Below, in pieces: positions 7,724-46,649 of a stretch of 46,649 nucleotides of DNA (position 1 is its first letter; the number at the start of each line of letters is the position of its first letter). Origin of the DNA: Ignavibacteriae bacterium HGW-Ignavibacteriae-4 (GTDB lineage: Bacteria > Bacteroidota > Ignavibacteria > Kapaibacteriales > UBA2268); assembly GCA_002839765.1 (NCBI GenBank), contig PGYR01000037.1:1-46649 (forward strand). The letters run 5' to 3'. Both the position numbers and the translations under genes were made by a program. The notes beneath the pieces were generated by a model. That model was not told the DNA's origin, did no database searches, and was given only the letters and a program-made list of their open reading frames with translations.

Positions 7724-7851
7724 GAATTGTGCTCCTTTGGAGGAGCTGGCTCGAGCTTGCGAGAGACTGAGGAGGAAAATTATCAATATTCATCTTCGTT
7801 TGTCCACCTCCGTCTTCCGATTTCATCGGAAGCCACCTCCGCCAGCGGAGG
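7724..7851. mobile_element. Paired-hairpin palindromic element, gene-less copy (element B)
   Basis: Order on the plus strand: hairpin GCTCCTTTGGAGGAGC (7731-7746), linker, small hairpin CTCG...CGAG, then GACTGAGGAGG; a 28-base core; CCACCTCCGTC; hairpin TTCCGATTTCATCGGAA (7815-7831); linker GCCA; hairpin CCTCCGCCAGCGGAGG (7836-7851). The two halves are inverted relative to each other in architecture. The same layout recurs at 46507-46634 and, with a DUF559 gene in the middle, at 24320-24850. It lies between the diheme protein gene and the TolC-like gene, inside the efflux gene train. It is open in several frames, but I see no gene. Confidence 0.85.
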
Positions 7852-7931
7852 ACATTCAGTGGTTTTGAGAGCGAAGCATACATGCGGAGCTAGAGAGTTA
7901 GTACGATTTAAAACGATTGTATAATAAATAA

Positions 7932-20324: not shown

Positions 20325-21101
20325 CTAACCTTCATACGGAATGGTATCAAGTATATGATTAATAACTTCTAATCTAGCTTTAGATTTTTGATTTGCATCT
20401 ATTATCACCCATGGTGCGTAATCGGTGTTAGTCTCCTCGAACATTTTTTTCTTATACTTAGTATATTCTTCCCAAAGGCGTTGTGAGTTCTCATCAACTG
20501 TAGTCATTTTCCATCTTTTCGAAGGATTTTTTCGTATTTCATCGAATCGTTTTGCTTGCTCATCTTTGGTAATTGAGAAATATATTTTGATAAGATATGT
20601 TTCTGAATCAACTAACATTTTCTCATACTCATTGACTTGTCCCATGAATATTTCATATTCCTTTTCTGTACAAAATCCATTTACGGGTTCTACCACAGCT
20701 CTATTATACCAGCTTCTATCAAATAGTACCATTTCCCCAGGTTTGGGTAATTGATTTATATATCTTTGGAAAAACCACTGTTTCCTCTCATCTTCTGTGG
20801 GGATATTCAGAGCCACAATACGGAAATGCCTAGGGTTTATATGTTCCGTAACTCTTCTAATAGCTCCACCCTTACCGGCAGCATCACGACCTTCGAAGAT
20901 AATAACTATTTTCTTATTATTCTTTATTGTCCAATTCTGAAGCTTAATCATCTCTTCTTGCTGCTCTTTGAGAGCTACTAAATATCTAGCTTCCTCTAAT
21001 GACTTTTTTAAATTTACTTTTTTATTTCTCAAAAGTGAGAGTAGCCCAACTTTAGAGTTTAATAATGCTACATCTTCATCTGTTAATTCTATTTTACTCA
21101 T
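20325..21101 (-). CDS. ppk2: Polyphosphate kinase 2 family protein (tandem copy 2)
   Basis: The 258-residue single-domain PPK2 has Walker A EGRDAAGKGG (residues 70-79), the lid region with the IPTEDERKQWFFQRY motif (100-114) and Walker B FDRSWYNRAVVEPV (127-140). PPK2 enzymes transfer phosphate between polyphosphate and nucleoside di- or monophosphates. One-domain length and motifs fit class I (ADP/GDP) or III; residues that would settle the class cannot be judged by eye. It is the second gene of a two-gene unit, 8 bp after the other PPK2 gene, with a ribosome-binding site GAGGAAAAA before ATG. Confidence 0.93.
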   Translation of the reverse strand: MSKIELTDEDVALLNSKVGLLSLLRNKKVNLKKSLEEARYLVALKEQQEEMIKLQNWTIKNNKKIVIIFEGRDAAGKGGAIRRVTEHINPRHFRIVALNIPTEDERKQWFFQRYINQLPKPGEMVLFDRSWYNRAVVEPVNGFCTEKEYEIFMGQVNEYEKMLVDSETYLIKIYFSITKDEQAKRFDEIRKNPSKRWKMTTVDENSQRLWEEYTKYKKKMFEETNTDYAPWVIIDANQKSKARLEVINHILDTIPYEG

Positions 21102-21109
21102 TTTTTCCT

Positions 21110-21967
21110 CTAAACGTCTAATTGAATTACACTTCTGTTAAAACGCATCACTACATTTGGGTCTGGGAGTAATGATATACCTGAATTTCCCTTCCCTTCG
21201 TAGTCGAATTGTGATAGTATATATCTCATACTTTCTAATCTCGCTTGTTTCTTATCATTTGCTTTTACAATAATCCAAGGGCTAAAATTCGTATGAGTTT
21301 TACTAAACATCTGTTCTTTAAAGTGAGTATAATCATCCCATAATTCTTGCCCTTTCATATCCACCGGGCTGAATTTCCACTGCTTCAAAGGGTCACTGAG
21401 CCTAGCGTCAAATCTTTTCGCTTGTTCACCTTTAGATATGGAGAACCAGAATTTTATAATTTTTAGATTATCTTCGTAGAGGAGGTGCTCGAACTCAGGT
21501 ACTTGCATAATGAATTTATTGTATTGTTCTTTTGAACAGAAACCCATTACCGGCTCTACTACAGCTCTATTATACCAGCTACGATCAAAGAATACTACTT
21601 CACTAGGGTCGGGTAAAACCTTAATATATCTACGGAAATACCATTGACCTTGCTCGACTTCAGTAGGTTTAGTTAGCGCTACTACGCGAGATGTCCTAGG
21701 ATTCAGATGCTCTTTAAACCTCTTAATCGTTCCACCCTTACCAGAAGCATCTCTTCCCTCAAAAATTATAGCTACTCGCATTTTGTTCTTTGCTATCCAC
21801 TTTTGCAAATCCACAAATTCAGATTGCAACTGAGCTATTTTGGTTTCATATTTCAATTTATTTAGAGTCTTTGAAATAGGTATTCCGTTATCTTCGGCTA
21901 TTTTCTTTAAATCTCTTCTTGTTTCAGCTTGCAGTAGTTGTTCTTTCGTATATCTCATAGCCACCAT
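21110..21967 (-). CDS. ppk2: Polyphosphate kinase 2 family protein (tandem copy 1)
   Basis: The 285-residue PPK2 has Walker A EGRDASGKGG at 70-79 and Walker B FDRSWYNRAVVEPV at 127-140, aligned residue for residue with the downstream copy but clearly diverged elsewhere, with a C-terminal extension (GNSGISLLPDPNVVMRFN). It is upstream and probably co-transcribed with the second PPK2. Two diverged copies suggest different nucleotide preference or hetero-oligomers; both keep their catalytic motifs. The start at 21967 (MVAMRYTK) is followed by an in-frame ATG three codons later that could be used instead. Confidence 0.92.
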   Translation of the reverse strand: MVAMRYTKEQLLQAETRRDLKKIAEDNGIPISKTLNKLKYETKIAQLQSEFVDLQKWIAKNKMRVAIIFEGRDASGKGGTIKRFKEHLNPRTSRVVALTKPTEVEQGQWYFRRYIKVLPDPSEVVFFDRSWYNRAVVEPVMGFCSKEQYNKFIMQVPEFEHLLYEDNLKIIKFWFSISKGEQAKRFDARLSDPLKQWKFSPVDMKGQELWDDYTHFKEQMFSKTHTNFSPWIIVKANDKKQARLESMRYILSQFDYEGKGNSGISLLPDPNVVMRFNRSVIQLDV

Positions 21968-23730: not shown

Positions 23731-24282
23731 ATGAATATACTTGCTATATCAGGCAGTACTAAAAGCAATTCCACCAGCCACCATATATTGAATCATATAA
23801 AGTCAATATATAGAAGCCACCTAGTACTAAACATATTCGATGGAATAGATAAGTTACCTCATTTCAATCCAGGCATAGCAGATGAAGATTTGCCAAAAGA
23901 AGTATTAGACTTCAGAAACAGAATAGCAGTTGCAGATGGAGTGATTTTCTGTACTCCTGAATATGTGTTTAGTATTCCTGGGAGCTTGAAAAATGCGATA
24001 GAATGGTGTGTATCAACCACAGTATTTTCTCATAAACCAACTGCTATTATAGTAGCCGCCGCATCTGGTGAAAAGGCATACGAGTCATTAGGTTTGATAA
24101 TGACAACGATTGAGACTATACTCCCCGAAGAATCAAAACTACTGATACAAGGTGCTAAAGGGAAAGTCAACACCACAGGTGAAATCACAGATAGCGATAC
24201 ACTAGAGCAAATAGAAAGGGTAATACAATCTCTAGTAGCTACTATCGAAGACGAAAATAAACGACCAACTAAATTGAGATAA
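23731..24282 (+). CDS. NADPH-dependent FMN reductase family protein
   Basis: The 183-residue flavodoxin-like protein has the phosphate loop SGSTKSNSTSHHIL (residues 7-20) and the FMN/active-site motif CTPEYVFSIPGSLKNAIEW (about 75-93), the signature of NADPH-dependent FMN reductases such as ChrR/YieF. Length is normal for the family. It is monocistronic, divergent from the propeller gene. Electron acceptor (quinone, azo dye, chromate) is unknown. Confidence 0.9.
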   Translation: MNILAISGSTKSNSTSHHILNHIKSIYRSHLVLNIFDGIDKLPHFNPGIADEDLPKEVLDFRNRIAVADGVIFCTPEYVFSIPGSLKNAIEWCVSTTVFSHKPTAIIVAAASGEKAYESLGLIMTTIETILPEESKLLIQGAKGKVNTTGEITDSDTLEQIERVIQSLVATIEDENKRPTKLR

Positions 24283-24293
24283 TTAAAAGGGGT

Positions 24294-24319
24294 TTACGGC
24301 TTATCGAAATGATGATAAT
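24294..24319 (-). pseudogene. Duplicate of the M15 peptidase 3' end, cut by element A
   Basis: On the minus strand this reads YHHFDKP-stop and matches the end of the M15 peptidase gene at 25370-25395 with two mismatches. The match resumes on the far side of the inserted element, where AAAAGATT precedes it. The AAT at 24317-24319 is one copy of the 3-bp direct repeat flanking the element. Confidence 0.7.
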
Positions 24320-24850
24320 TCCCCTTTTCTTGAAAAGGGGTGGCAGACTCACGCAGTGTGTCTGACGGGGTATTCACATACCCACAAACTCCGCCATTAT
24401 ACGATTCTTCAAATCTAGAATAACATTATCCAAATTGGATTTTACATCCAGGTCAGCATATCTAATAACTGTCAAACCAAGACTGTTTAAGTAGTTGTCC
24501 CTTATCTCATCTTCTTCAATTTTTTCATTGTGGCTTACACCATCTATCTCAATTACAATTCCTAGTTTTTTAATATAAAAATCTACTATATAATCCCCGA
24601 TTATTTTTTGTCTGTCGAAATCTAAACCAAGTATTTTTTTTGTTTTACCTCTTTCCAAAATAGTACTTCTGACAAAATTCCCTGTTTACGAAGTTCTCTC
24701 GCTCTTTCTTTTAGTTGTGGATTTGAGGGTAGATTTAATATTCTTTGTTTGAATTTATAGTTACTCATTTAACATTGGTTTTATTAATTAAACACCCCGT
24801 CTCACGCCTTTGGCGTGATCCACCCCTCTTTCGCTATGCTTAAAGAGGGG
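24320..24850. mobile_element. Paired-hairpin mobile element carrying a DUF559 nuclease gene (element A)
   Basis: Left end: hairpin with arms CCCCTTTTC/GAAAAGGGG (24321-24340), linker TGG, second hairpin with arms CAGAC...GTCTG (24344-24364), then ACGGGGT. Right end: ACCCCGT (24794-24800), hairpin TCACGCC-TTT-GGCGTGA (24802-24818), linker TCCA, hairpin CCCCTCTTT...AAAGAGGGG (24823-24850). The ends are inverted repeats in architecture and linkers, while the hairpin stems differ in sequence. AAT occurs directly at both flanks (24317-24319, 24851-24853). Removing the element and one AAT restores a GATGATAATCTTTT junction identical to the intact M15 gene. The DUF559 gene is transcribed from the right end towards the left. 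Confidence 0.85.
24374..24768 (-). pseudogene. DUF559 (Vsr-like) endonuclease gene with a single frameshift
   Basis: From the ATG at 24768 the first frame reads MSNYKFKQRILNLPSNPQ... KERARELRKQGILSEVLFWKEVKQKK, the usual DUF559 N-terminus. It then meets a stop just after an A8 run (24634-24641 on the opposite strand). The -1 frame continues ILGLDFDRQKIIGDYIVDFYIKKLGIVIEIDG to the TGA at 24374. Together they make a full-length protein of about 130 residues. The core has the PD-(D/E)XK-like acidic residues of DUF559/Vsr nucleases in DYIVDF and IEIDG. The run A-AAA-AAA could support programmed -1 frameshifting; otherwise it is a one-base deletion or a homopolymer sequencing error. It is the only gene of element A. 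Confidence 0.8.
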
Positions 24851-24853
24851 AAT

Positions 24854-24944
24854 CTTTTGCTATCACTGTTCCTACGTTTCCTAAGTGGTCTTTTACTACG
24901 ACTTCGTTCAGCACAAGTATCTCATATTTACTCAAATCGTCAGT
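24854..24944 (-). pseudogene. Remnant reading frame upstream of element A
   Basis: A minus-strand frame is open here (DDLSKYEILVLNEVV, then HLGNVGTVIAKD) and, with the element removed, continues directly into YHHFDKP-stop. It lacks a start codon and does not resemble the M15 peptidase upstream of KDYHHFDKP. Part of it contains a CTTGTGCTGAACGAAGTCG string like a common FCB-group intergenic repeat. It is probably a composite of decayed DNA. Confidence 0.4.
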
Positions 24945-24966
24945 TCAATATTTAATTATTGCTATT

Positions 24967-25359
24967 TTAACCTAATAATCCGTTAAAAGGAACAGGATTT
25001 AATAGTGCTATAAACAAACCTAAAATATAATAGATAAGAATTAGAATGTTCATCCTATAAAGGTATCTATGTTTTTTCCCATGTTTTTTGAATTTTGAAG
25101 TTCGATTGACACAATACATAGAATAAATAGAAGCTAAGAAGAATCCGATTAATACATATGGTTCAACAATTCCTCTTAATCTCATTACTATAGCATAATC
25201 ACCAAGCGTTACTGACCTAGTGTTAACTAGAAAATATTCAGGATGCCCTAATATTATATAAAAAATGTCATAAAGGAAAAAAATGAACACTAATAATATT
25301 ATATTAGTTATACTTAGTAATAATACATTATCTATTTTTTTTTCTTGTTTTTTAATCAT
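24967..25359 (-). CDS. Small membrane protein of unknown function
   Basis: The open frame begins at 25383 inside the upstream peptidase gene. The ATG at 25359 is preferred because TAGGGAT lies about 8 bases before it and no overlap is needed. The product of about 130 residues has a basic N-terminus (MIKKQEKK) and three hydrophobic segments (about 12-35, 65-85, 105-125) with a basic loop NRTSKFKKHGKKHR. No family recognised. It follows the M15 peptidase by 10 bp. Confidence 0.65.
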   Translation of the reverse strand: MIKKQEKKIDNVLLLSITNIILLVFIFFLYDIFYIILGHPEYFLVNTRSVTLGDYAIVMRLRGIVEPYVLIGFFLASIYSMYCVNRTSKFKKHGKKHRYLYRMNILILIYYILGLFIALLNPVPFNGLLG

Positions 25360-25369
25360 AATTTTATCC

Positions 25370-25972
25370 CTACGGCTTATCAAAGTGATGATAATCTTTT
25401 AGTGAAGTCCAATCGCCGCCCCATCTCCAGCCTCGAGCTTTCATCTCTTTTACTATTCGTCCATCAGCAGTGAATACACCAGGATTTCCGGGTATGTACT
25501 TCGCACCTTTGGGTGAGGTTTTAGGTGGGTCTTTGTATATAACCGGATTGAAAAATGGGTTTATATCTATCGCTTTACCGAAAGAATGATTAGAAAGTCT
25601 TGTAGTACCAGCTATGAACCTGTAGTTAAACGCTGATGAGTTATTAGCACTCATAGAAGCATCATCATCCCATTTGTATTTTACTATTGGGACTACTTGC
25701 TTAATAGGAAACTTCTCTTCCATTGCCATCTGGAAAAAGTACTTTACGTCTTCTTCGACTGACTTGTGAACTAATATCTGTCCTTGGTGTAGCTTTTTAT
25801 CAGTGGAGTAATACTCGACATTCAGCAGAACAATTGAATCTAATAATTCTTTAGGTGCCTTCGTTCCTTTGGTTGCTTCCTCGAAACTCATTTTGCTATC
25901 TACTATTGTCAAGCCGCCTCCGAGCAGGGTAGTTGTTATTATTAAAGCGATGATTAATATTGTTGTTTTCAT
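25370..25972 (-). CDS. M15-family zinc D-Ala-D-Ala carboxypeptidase-like protein
   Basis: The 200-residue secreted or membrane-anchored protein has a signal peptide (ILIIALIITTTLLGGGLT). The peptidase M15 (VanY/DacA-like M15_4) core is present: FIAGTTRLSNHSFGKAIDINPFFNP supplies the zinc ligands His and Asp of S-x-H-x-x-G-x-A-x-D, and WGGDWTSLKDYHHFDKP supplies the catalytic acid and the third His ligand. Such enzymes trim peptidoglycan stem peptides. The last nine codons are duplicated at 24294-24319 and there interrupted by element A. Confidence 0.88.
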   Translation of the reverse strand: MKTTILIIALIITTTLLGGGLTIVDSKMSFEEATKGTKAPKELLDSIVLLNVEYYSTDKKLHQGQILVHKSVEEDVKYFFQMAMEEKFPIKQVVPIVKYKWDDDASMSANNSSAFNYRFIAGTTRLSNHSFGKAIDINPFFNPVIYKDPPKTSPKGAKYIPGNPGVFTADGRIVKEMKARGWRWGGDWTSLKDYHHFDKP

Positions 25973-46439: not shown

Positions 46440-46649
46440 CTACTCCACCACAATCACGCTCTTCGTAATAGCATCGTAAGGTGTAATTAATCTTACTTGA
46501 AATAACGAACTGTGCTCCTTTGGAGGAGCTGTCTCGAGCATGCGAGAGACTGAGGAGGATGATTTAGAAAGTTCTTCTTCGTTTGTCCACCTCCGTCTGA
46601 CACCTGCGGTGTCAGCCACCTCCGCCAGCGGAGGAAAATGCCCTACTCC
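46440..46649 (-). CDS. 3' end of a T9SS-exported protein gene, containing element C in frame
   Basis: Reading the minus strand from the window edge gives 69 open codons ending at TAG 46440-46442. The last 23 residues, SSLFQVRLITPYDAITKSVI then VVE, are the final strands of a type A T9SS sorting domain. The preceding 40 or so codons are element C, translated without a stop (PPLAEVADTAG, RRRWTNEEELSKSSSSVS, RMLETAPPKEH). The gene continues beyond the window, so whether the reading frame upstream is intact cannot be seen. Confidence 0.6.
   Translation of the reverse strand, partial: GVGHFPPLAEVADTAGVRRRWTNEEELSKSSSSVSRMLETAPPKEHSSLFQVRLITPYDAITKSVIVVE
46507..46634. mobile_element. Paired-hairpin palindromic element, gene-less copy (element C)
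   Basis: Hairpin GCTCCTTTGGAGGAGC (46514-46529), small hairpin TCTCG...CGAGA (46532-46547), TGAGGAGG; a 28-base core; CCACCTCCGTC; hairpin TGACACC-TGC-GGTGTCA (46598-46614); GCCA; hairpin CCTCCGCCAGCGGAGG (46619-46634). It is 128 bp like element B, with nearly identical left hairpins, outer right hairpin and linkers, but a different inner right hairpin, which argues for selection on pairing rather than sequence. Confidence 0.85.

Follow-up and report, generated by a model that had tools for sequence, protein, structure and literature searches.

A DUF559 nuclease gene between inverted paired-hairpin ends: a candidate mobile element from an Ignavibacteriae genome and its relation to BoxC/PIT-type repeats

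Introduction

Among the closest described systems are the REP and REPIN sequences mobilised with RAYT (TnpA_REP), in which each REP hairpin carries a GTAG or CGTC tag as defined in PMC3733652. A second is formed by the BoxC/PIT/TM_ECO repeats, for which PMC4666352 gives 23 copies in Escherichia coli K-12, some of them inverted pairs, and an occurrence in more than 260 genomes. There (Holder et al. 2015) they are described as an orphan triplex motif, near which no remnants of transposases or integrases are said ever to have been found (PMC4666352). How repeats of this type spread has gone unexplained since the 1990s. The DUF559 domain, including E. coli YcjD, is already classed as a PD-(D/E)XK nuclease in PMC1189080.

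Here we describe a DUF559 gene enclosed by inverted ends, each built of two hairpins and a G-rich tag. It lies in a stretch of 46,649 nucleotides (the window; contig PGYR01000037.1 of Ignavibacteriae bacterium HGW-Ignavibacteriae-4, assembly GCA_002839765.1). A reading made from the sequence alone had proposed it as an undescribed mobile element with a target duplication, and we compare this proposal with related loci across the bacteria.

Results

The unit in the window

The unit and its flanks are arranged as listed, with scores from R1, a covariance model built from 35 ends.

24318-24853: hairpin-ended DUF559 unit, 536 bp, which begins ATTCCCC and finishes GGGGAAT
24318-24371, + strand: end on the gene's 3' side, consisting of ATT, outer hairpin, TGG, inner hairpin and ACGGGGT (R1 62.5 bits; folding)
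Parts of this end: ATT 24318-24320; outer hairpin 24321-24340; TGG 24341-24343; inner hairpin 24344-24364; ACGGGGT 24365-24371
24374-24768, - strand: gene for a DUF559 (PF04480, 3e-21) Vsr-like nuclease, frameshifted at an A8 run
24794-24853, - strand: inverted end on the gene's 5' side, consisting of ACCCCGT, inner hairpin, CCA, outer hairpin and AAT (R1 68.5 bits at 24787-24853; folding)
Parts of this end: ACCCCGT 24794-24800; inner hairpin 24802-24818; CCA 24820-24822; outer hairpin 24823-24850; AAT 24851-24853
24294-24317, - strand: left flank, in which the 3' end of the adjacent M15 peptidase gene is repeated (..DYHHFDKP-stop), recognised by eye
24854-24943, - strand: right flank, a fragment reading ..LNEVVVKDHLGNVGTVIAKD

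The inverted paired-hairpin ends that the sequence-only reading placed around the DUF559 gene are present at the sequence level, far beyond chance. As single-stranded DNA, both ends fold on both strands with z scores of -4.4 to -6.5 against shuffles. A flavodoxin-like gene lies on one side of the unit and the M15 peptidase gene on the other; the right-flank fragment is presumably RHS-like, and a Pfam search with its longer relatives gave no match. Rfam detected no intron in 23900-25400, its one sub-threshold match being to a miRNA model (23.8 bits against a required 70). Further away, at 20325-21967, two PPK2-like genes stand side by side (Pfam was run on the first one only).

Pfam finds DUF559 and a weak MTES_1575 match in the gene product, and nothing else. 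The DUF559 frame breaks at the A8 run (a T-run at 24634-24641 on the + strand), a run of eight adenines that is absent from the three intact relatives compared, and the window copy of the nuclease is therefore probably inactive.

Copies in the genus

A search of four genomes of the genus with R1 returned 112 ends, 45 of them in the window's own genome, with some of the weak matches among the 112 being ends of a related class present at the DUF559 locus L002. Two gene-less units of this second class lie in the window itself.

7731-7852: gene-less repeat unit of the class found beside the L002 DUF559 gene, with hairpins at both ends (31.3 bits at 7799-7856)
46514-46634: another gene-less unit of the same class (36.8 bits at 46582-46639)

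The ends include 17 inward-facing pairs, seven with a gene (523-610 bp) and ten without (175-217 bp), and 78 solo ends. All ten gene-less pairs retain 5-10 of the nuclease's last ten residues together with its stop, against a maximum of 4 in 200 control stretches, so the short units are deletion derivatives of gene-bearing copies. The proposal of a defined element is thereby borne out: the gene and its paired-hairpin ends form a multi-copy unit with gene-less derivatives. Among four intact copies of the family-A nuclease, dN/dS is 0.04-0.13, which indicates evolution under constraint. Two elements from different species, with different flanks, are 95.8% identical, compared with 86.0% in a single segment of host DNA that itself includes a short element. 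Elsewhere the window's own genome has five more stand-alone PF04480 genes and one fusion without repeats, labelled helicase-like from the gene's long open frame.

Some elements of the genus (L185, L184, L006) lie within gene fragments that we take to be RHS-like, in some cases with the fragment duplicated on either side. A gene-poor region, L169 (G000:C15:2700-12100), holds a DUF559 unit together with four gene-less pairs; its counterpart in a congener, L297, is without a family-A end.

Target duplication and empty sites

The AAT on both sides of the unit had been read as a target duplication. In the genus, 17 of 17 inward-facing pairs finish GGGGAAT and 16 of 17 begin ATTCCCC (the remaining one ATTCTCC), and ATT/AAT therefore belongs to the element, as its own terminal repeat, and not to the target. 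The ends are sharp: over 50 distinct ends, information is 1.86 bits at position -3 and just 0.57 at -4. Two flanking bases are in common in 1 of 16 pairs (0.75 expected) and three or more in none of the 16. The end consensus (17 pairs) and the flank comparison (16 pairs) together rule out a 3-bp target duplication.

Removal of the unit with one AAT had also been said to restore a junction, GATGATAATCTTTT, that recurs in the intact M15 gene. The match is literally there, and it stops five bases past the AAT. Since the left flank is itself a copy of the M15 tail, GATGATAATCTTTT proves no clean empty site. The expectation of such a site at this locus in related genomes fared no better: the congener G001 has no element, yet the surrounding DNA is also different, G003 has a short gene-less unit and G002 a copy. 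The window and G002 copies at this matching locus are 97.1% identical over 309 bases, against 79% for the neighbouring gene. We found no two-sided clean empty site in nucleotide comparisons at the window locus (three congeners), at G000:C15 against G002, at two short elements or at two sites of another genus, one of which (G014 against G019) was aligned, and no transposition event was observed. In that alignment, G019 carries the unit minus its inner hairpin. At one site in two congeners (L261 1486-1575, and L317), one has a full end and the other an end from which the inner hairpin, and nothing else, is missing, with a GGGGTG copy on either side of the gap.

Structure of the ends and the matching nuclease clade

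The consensus of the 35 ends, which come from many phyla, is ATTCCCCT..AGGGGTGG..ACGGGGT. That the ends are structured pairs is confirmed by covariation: 94.7% of cells are paired, where shuffles give 74.8%, and the ends score 0.520 for covariation, compared with 0.149 for shuffles and at most 0.143 with sliding partners, the regular expression that collected the ends having fixed the C4/G4 runs and linkers and left free the inner stem and outer pairs 8-11, where the changes fall.

Paired hairpins were expected at both ends of related genes, and in the window's nuclease clade this holds. With a label chosen after the scores were known (an R1 end of at least 28 bits within 400 bp), 27 of the 32 nearest relatives are positive, 19 of them on both sides, and 4 of 48 more distant ones. 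Two short loci, L016 and L018, were omitted from the tree and from the R1 locus searches, for which the count is 9 of 46 searched and not 9 of 48. In a tree built from 126 DUF559 domains, with few columns and numerous open forks, the end label changes 6 times, against at least 27 times in 300 shuffles; none of a separate 500 shuffles was as low. One clade (SH-aLRT 92) has 36 positive among 38 rows, the 38 being in one count all the positives ("36 of 38 positives"). Its hosts belong to the Bacteroidota, Pseudomonadota, Bacillota, Actinomycetota, Acidobacteriota, Cyanobacteriota, Spirochaetota, Thermodesulfobacteriota and others.

One genome can hold several nucleases, each flanked by its own distinct repeat, and the host therefore does not explain the pairing of nuclease and end. 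Among 148 Bacteroidota genomes, 24 have R1 matches, and PF04480 is found in 19 of these against 59 of the 124 others (p 0.0038), part of the counts coming from stricter filters and thus being lower bounds. The five R1-bearing genomes without a PF04480 match are G112, G012, G009, G098 and G145; G098, with seven ends, may be a relic. A cognate pairing of nuclease and ends is well supported.

Repeats beside other stand-alone DUF559 genes

Among the 91 stand-alone DUF559 genes whose flanks were long enough, 64 have a repeat common to both sides, compared with 6 of 550 control positions, the control windows overlapping and being drawn from the same loci. Another 15 loci had been dropped for a flank shorter than 150 bp. 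By source, the repeat-flanked genes are 11/15 in the genus, 12/15 in the phylum sample, 40/57 across all bacteria and 1/4 on viral contigs (nine loci, four of them usable). The repeats are direct only at 27 loci, inverted only at 18 and both at 19. The 27 genes that fail the test include L005, L006, L013 and L017, which nevertheless have clear paired ends, as the measure misses diverged inverted ends, the window's own included. Two layouts recur: the gene lies within one inverted pair, as in the window's family, or between repeat units in direct order (L001, L028, L042).

Hairpins at gene ends are common, and terminators or chance hairpins near a small gene would be the most ordinary account of the locus. 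A scan of 24200-25000 found 0 terminator-like sites with 0.5 expected, and the account is already contradicted by the flank test, the covariation and the 112 dispersed copies; we give it next to no weight.

Insertions inside host genes

Many DUF559 domains in long open frames consist of DUF559 and translated hairpin repeats, in frame within a host gene. The long-frame loci number 31, of which 19 were read by eye and nine scanned with Pfam; all nine scanned have PF04480 together with host domains. The hosts of the nine are leuS-like (two), metH-like (two), HsdR-like (two), radical SAM (one, called lipA-like by eye), a DNA methylase (one) and a type ISP restriction protein (one). In one LeuRS, 161 residues stand in place of 3 in chain 1h3n, and residues 301-460 are without a counterpart between its positions 236 and 240. 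In one MetH, residues 464-627 (164) replace 19 of 9ssp, with strong matches on either side. In two metH genes the insert, which measures 153 and 165 residues with the borders that were set, lies between inverted hairpin repeats; two leuS genes have a clear hairpin on the 3' side and a weak one on the 5' side. The LeuRS compared with 1h3n (L021) has a second insert at residues 154-212, without DUF559, possibly a gene-less relative.

Set against uninterrupted proteins, the LeuRS and MetH inserts appear as clear two-sided insertion boundaries, as judged from protein sequence. The fusions of DUF559 with restriction proteins could have other causes too. Insertion as such is well supported.

The enzyme

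Alignments of 14 and of 25 proteins have the same invariant residues, E34, W38, Q54, D63, F64, E74, G77, H80, D87 and R103, among them the Vsr-like acidic/histidine set of the putative active site (E34, D63, E74, H80 and D87). The AlphaFold model (pLDDT 88.8) has as its best Foldseek matches 3hrl, a gonococcal endonuclease-like protein, and the domain of the homing endonuclease I-Bth0305I (3r3p), with a weaker match to Vsr (1vsr, E 0.056, probability 0.98). The assignment of DUF559 to the Vsr-like PD-(D/E)XK nucleases thus agrees with the Vsr/I-Bth0305I fold predicted for it. A role in defence was considered and set aside, as PADLOC gave only weak matches for the three proteins tested.

The nearest characterised relative is thus a homing endonuclease and not a transposase, and the main rival explanation is homing, in which the repeats spread by other means, DUF559 cuts its cognate repeats and the gene is copied in by break repair, leaving repeat-gene-repeat. 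I-Bth0305I is a relative in sequence as well as fold, and one of the three proteins matched the PADLOC homing endonuclease model (1.8e-7). Homing into pre-existing repeats could explain the direct-order layout, and direct repeats lie across the gene at 46 of 91 loci (27 with direct repeats alone, 19 with both kinds), the pattern that splitting and duplication of a repeat would give. Against this, the ten gene-less pairs all keep the nuclease tail and hence descend from gene-bearing copies, Rfam finds no intron at the window locus, and units lie within the coding sequence of several gene families. We consider homing unlikely.

The resemblance to the repair endonuclease Vsr suggests another role, in which DUF559 is a host repair nuclease for hairpins or triplexes that selection has kept beside the repeats. 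The Caulobacter DUF559 protein VsrA is tied to DNA damage in PMC12907096. Such maintenance is hard to reconcile with coexisting nucleases that each have their own repeats in one genome, with patchy presence, with in-frame insertion in unrelated genes and with ends common across phyla, and we regard it as very improbable.

ycjD and the BoxC/PIT repeats

The E. coli DUF559 gene is ycjD, and the repeat downstream of it, which ends GAGAGGGTTAGGGTGAGGGG, is the BoxC/PIT/TM_ECO triplex repeat. Allowing at most two mismatches, we counted 24 occurrences of this 20-mer in E. coli H240, 12 on an Azospirillum replicon, where a DUF559 gene is present as well, and 4 in a record from the gonococcus; the reversed 20-mer, used as a control, gave no match. 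Beside ycjD there is a C-rich hairpin with a G-rich third strand after it, and the window ends are similar but have a second, inner hairpin. Upstream of ycjD only an unrelated hairpin was seen.

A ycjD query was matched over at least 80% of its length in 3,332 of 5,426 E. coli genomes. We rejected ycjD as a presence/absence insertion site: lineages without it have in its place an efflux operon, named eefRABCD in PMC12817139. BoxC copies vary between E. coli strains, and at five BoxC sites we found no insertion that is clean on both sides. At the alx-sstT pair (L222 against L313 and L314, both variants aligned), a deletion between two hairpin loops leaves one hybrid hairpin; the Discussion of PMC4666352 likewise describes the collapse of palindromic BoxC copies.

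Discussion

The unit is, we think, probably a mobile element of about 530 bp, whose Vsr-like nuclease is matched to its two-hairpin, G-tagged ends in an arrangement like that of REP and RAYT with an unrelated enzyme. The gene-less pairs and solo ends would then be non-autonomous descendants of the gene-bearing element. We infer that the nuclease recognises the hairpins at its own ends: it would bind the hairpin and G tag exposed in single-stranded DNA and nick beside the hairpin, and replication and repair would copy the freed unit elsewhere, with no target duplication made in the window's family. Hairpin nicking, this pathway of transposition and the view that movement is driven by the nuclease and not by an enzyme of the host are suggestions of the model.

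A broader proposal, for and against which we find the case evenly balanced, is that the elements with DUF559 make up a new superfamily of transposable elements with hairpin ends, present across a large part of the bacterial tree. Each nuclease clade would mobilise its own G-tagged hairpin repeat by way of DNA in single-stranded, hairpin or triplex form. Many orphan G/C-rich repeats, BoxC/PIT among them, would be non-autonomous members, and open reading through the ends would allow in-frame settling in housekeeping genes, leuS and metH for example. A nuclease family matched to BoxC/PIT-type repeats gives these a concrete partner, E. coli K-12 included. If true, the proposal would mean that the REP/RAYT problem has been solved a second time by unrelated means, and it would give a use to a very common domain of unknown function; it would also mean that housekeeping proteins tolerate a mobile nuclease domain in mid-sequence. 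In keeping with the description of the element as new, our search of open-access full-text literature (preprints as such lay outside its scope) returned no paper linking DUF559 to such repeats, an absence that is not proof; the link of BoxC/PIT to DUF559 is new here.

Of the known systems, classical IS elements (DDE) resemble the unit in having terminal inverted repeats, here ATTCCCC/GGGGAAT, and differ from it in that the unit has no DDE transposase and no target-site duplication (0 of 16 pairs with at least 3 bp). The window ends resemble BoxC/PIT/TM_ECO, in which a G-rich third strand comes after a C-rich hairpin, but have a second, inner hairpin; single copies and inverted pairs occur in both, and the ycjD-side type is itself one of these repeats. 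The parallel with REP/REPIN and RAYT that had been drawn from the sequence fits: one small nuclease gene is flanked, and far outnumbered, by short hairpin repeats that frequently form inverted pairs. RAYT is, however, an HUH (Y1) enzyme, whereas DUF559 has a predicted Vsr-like PD-(D/E)XK fold and no HUH match by Pfam or Foldseek, and in place of the REP tag beside a hairpin the window ends have two hairpins and the G-rich ACGGGGT, with no GTAG or CGTC. Vsr and the EDxHD homing endonucleases (1vsr, I-Bth0305I 3r3p, 3hrl) are relatives of DUF559 in fold and sequence; Vsr is a repair enzyme and I-Bth0305I is intron-encoded, whereas the DUF559 unit in the window is without an intron by Rfam. We know of no hairpin repeats that bracket either Vsr or I-Bth0305I. 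Finally, the Rickettsia palindromic elements, which to our knowledge carry no nuclease gene, are like the DUF559 inserts in being palindromic repeats that lie in frame within housekeeping genes.
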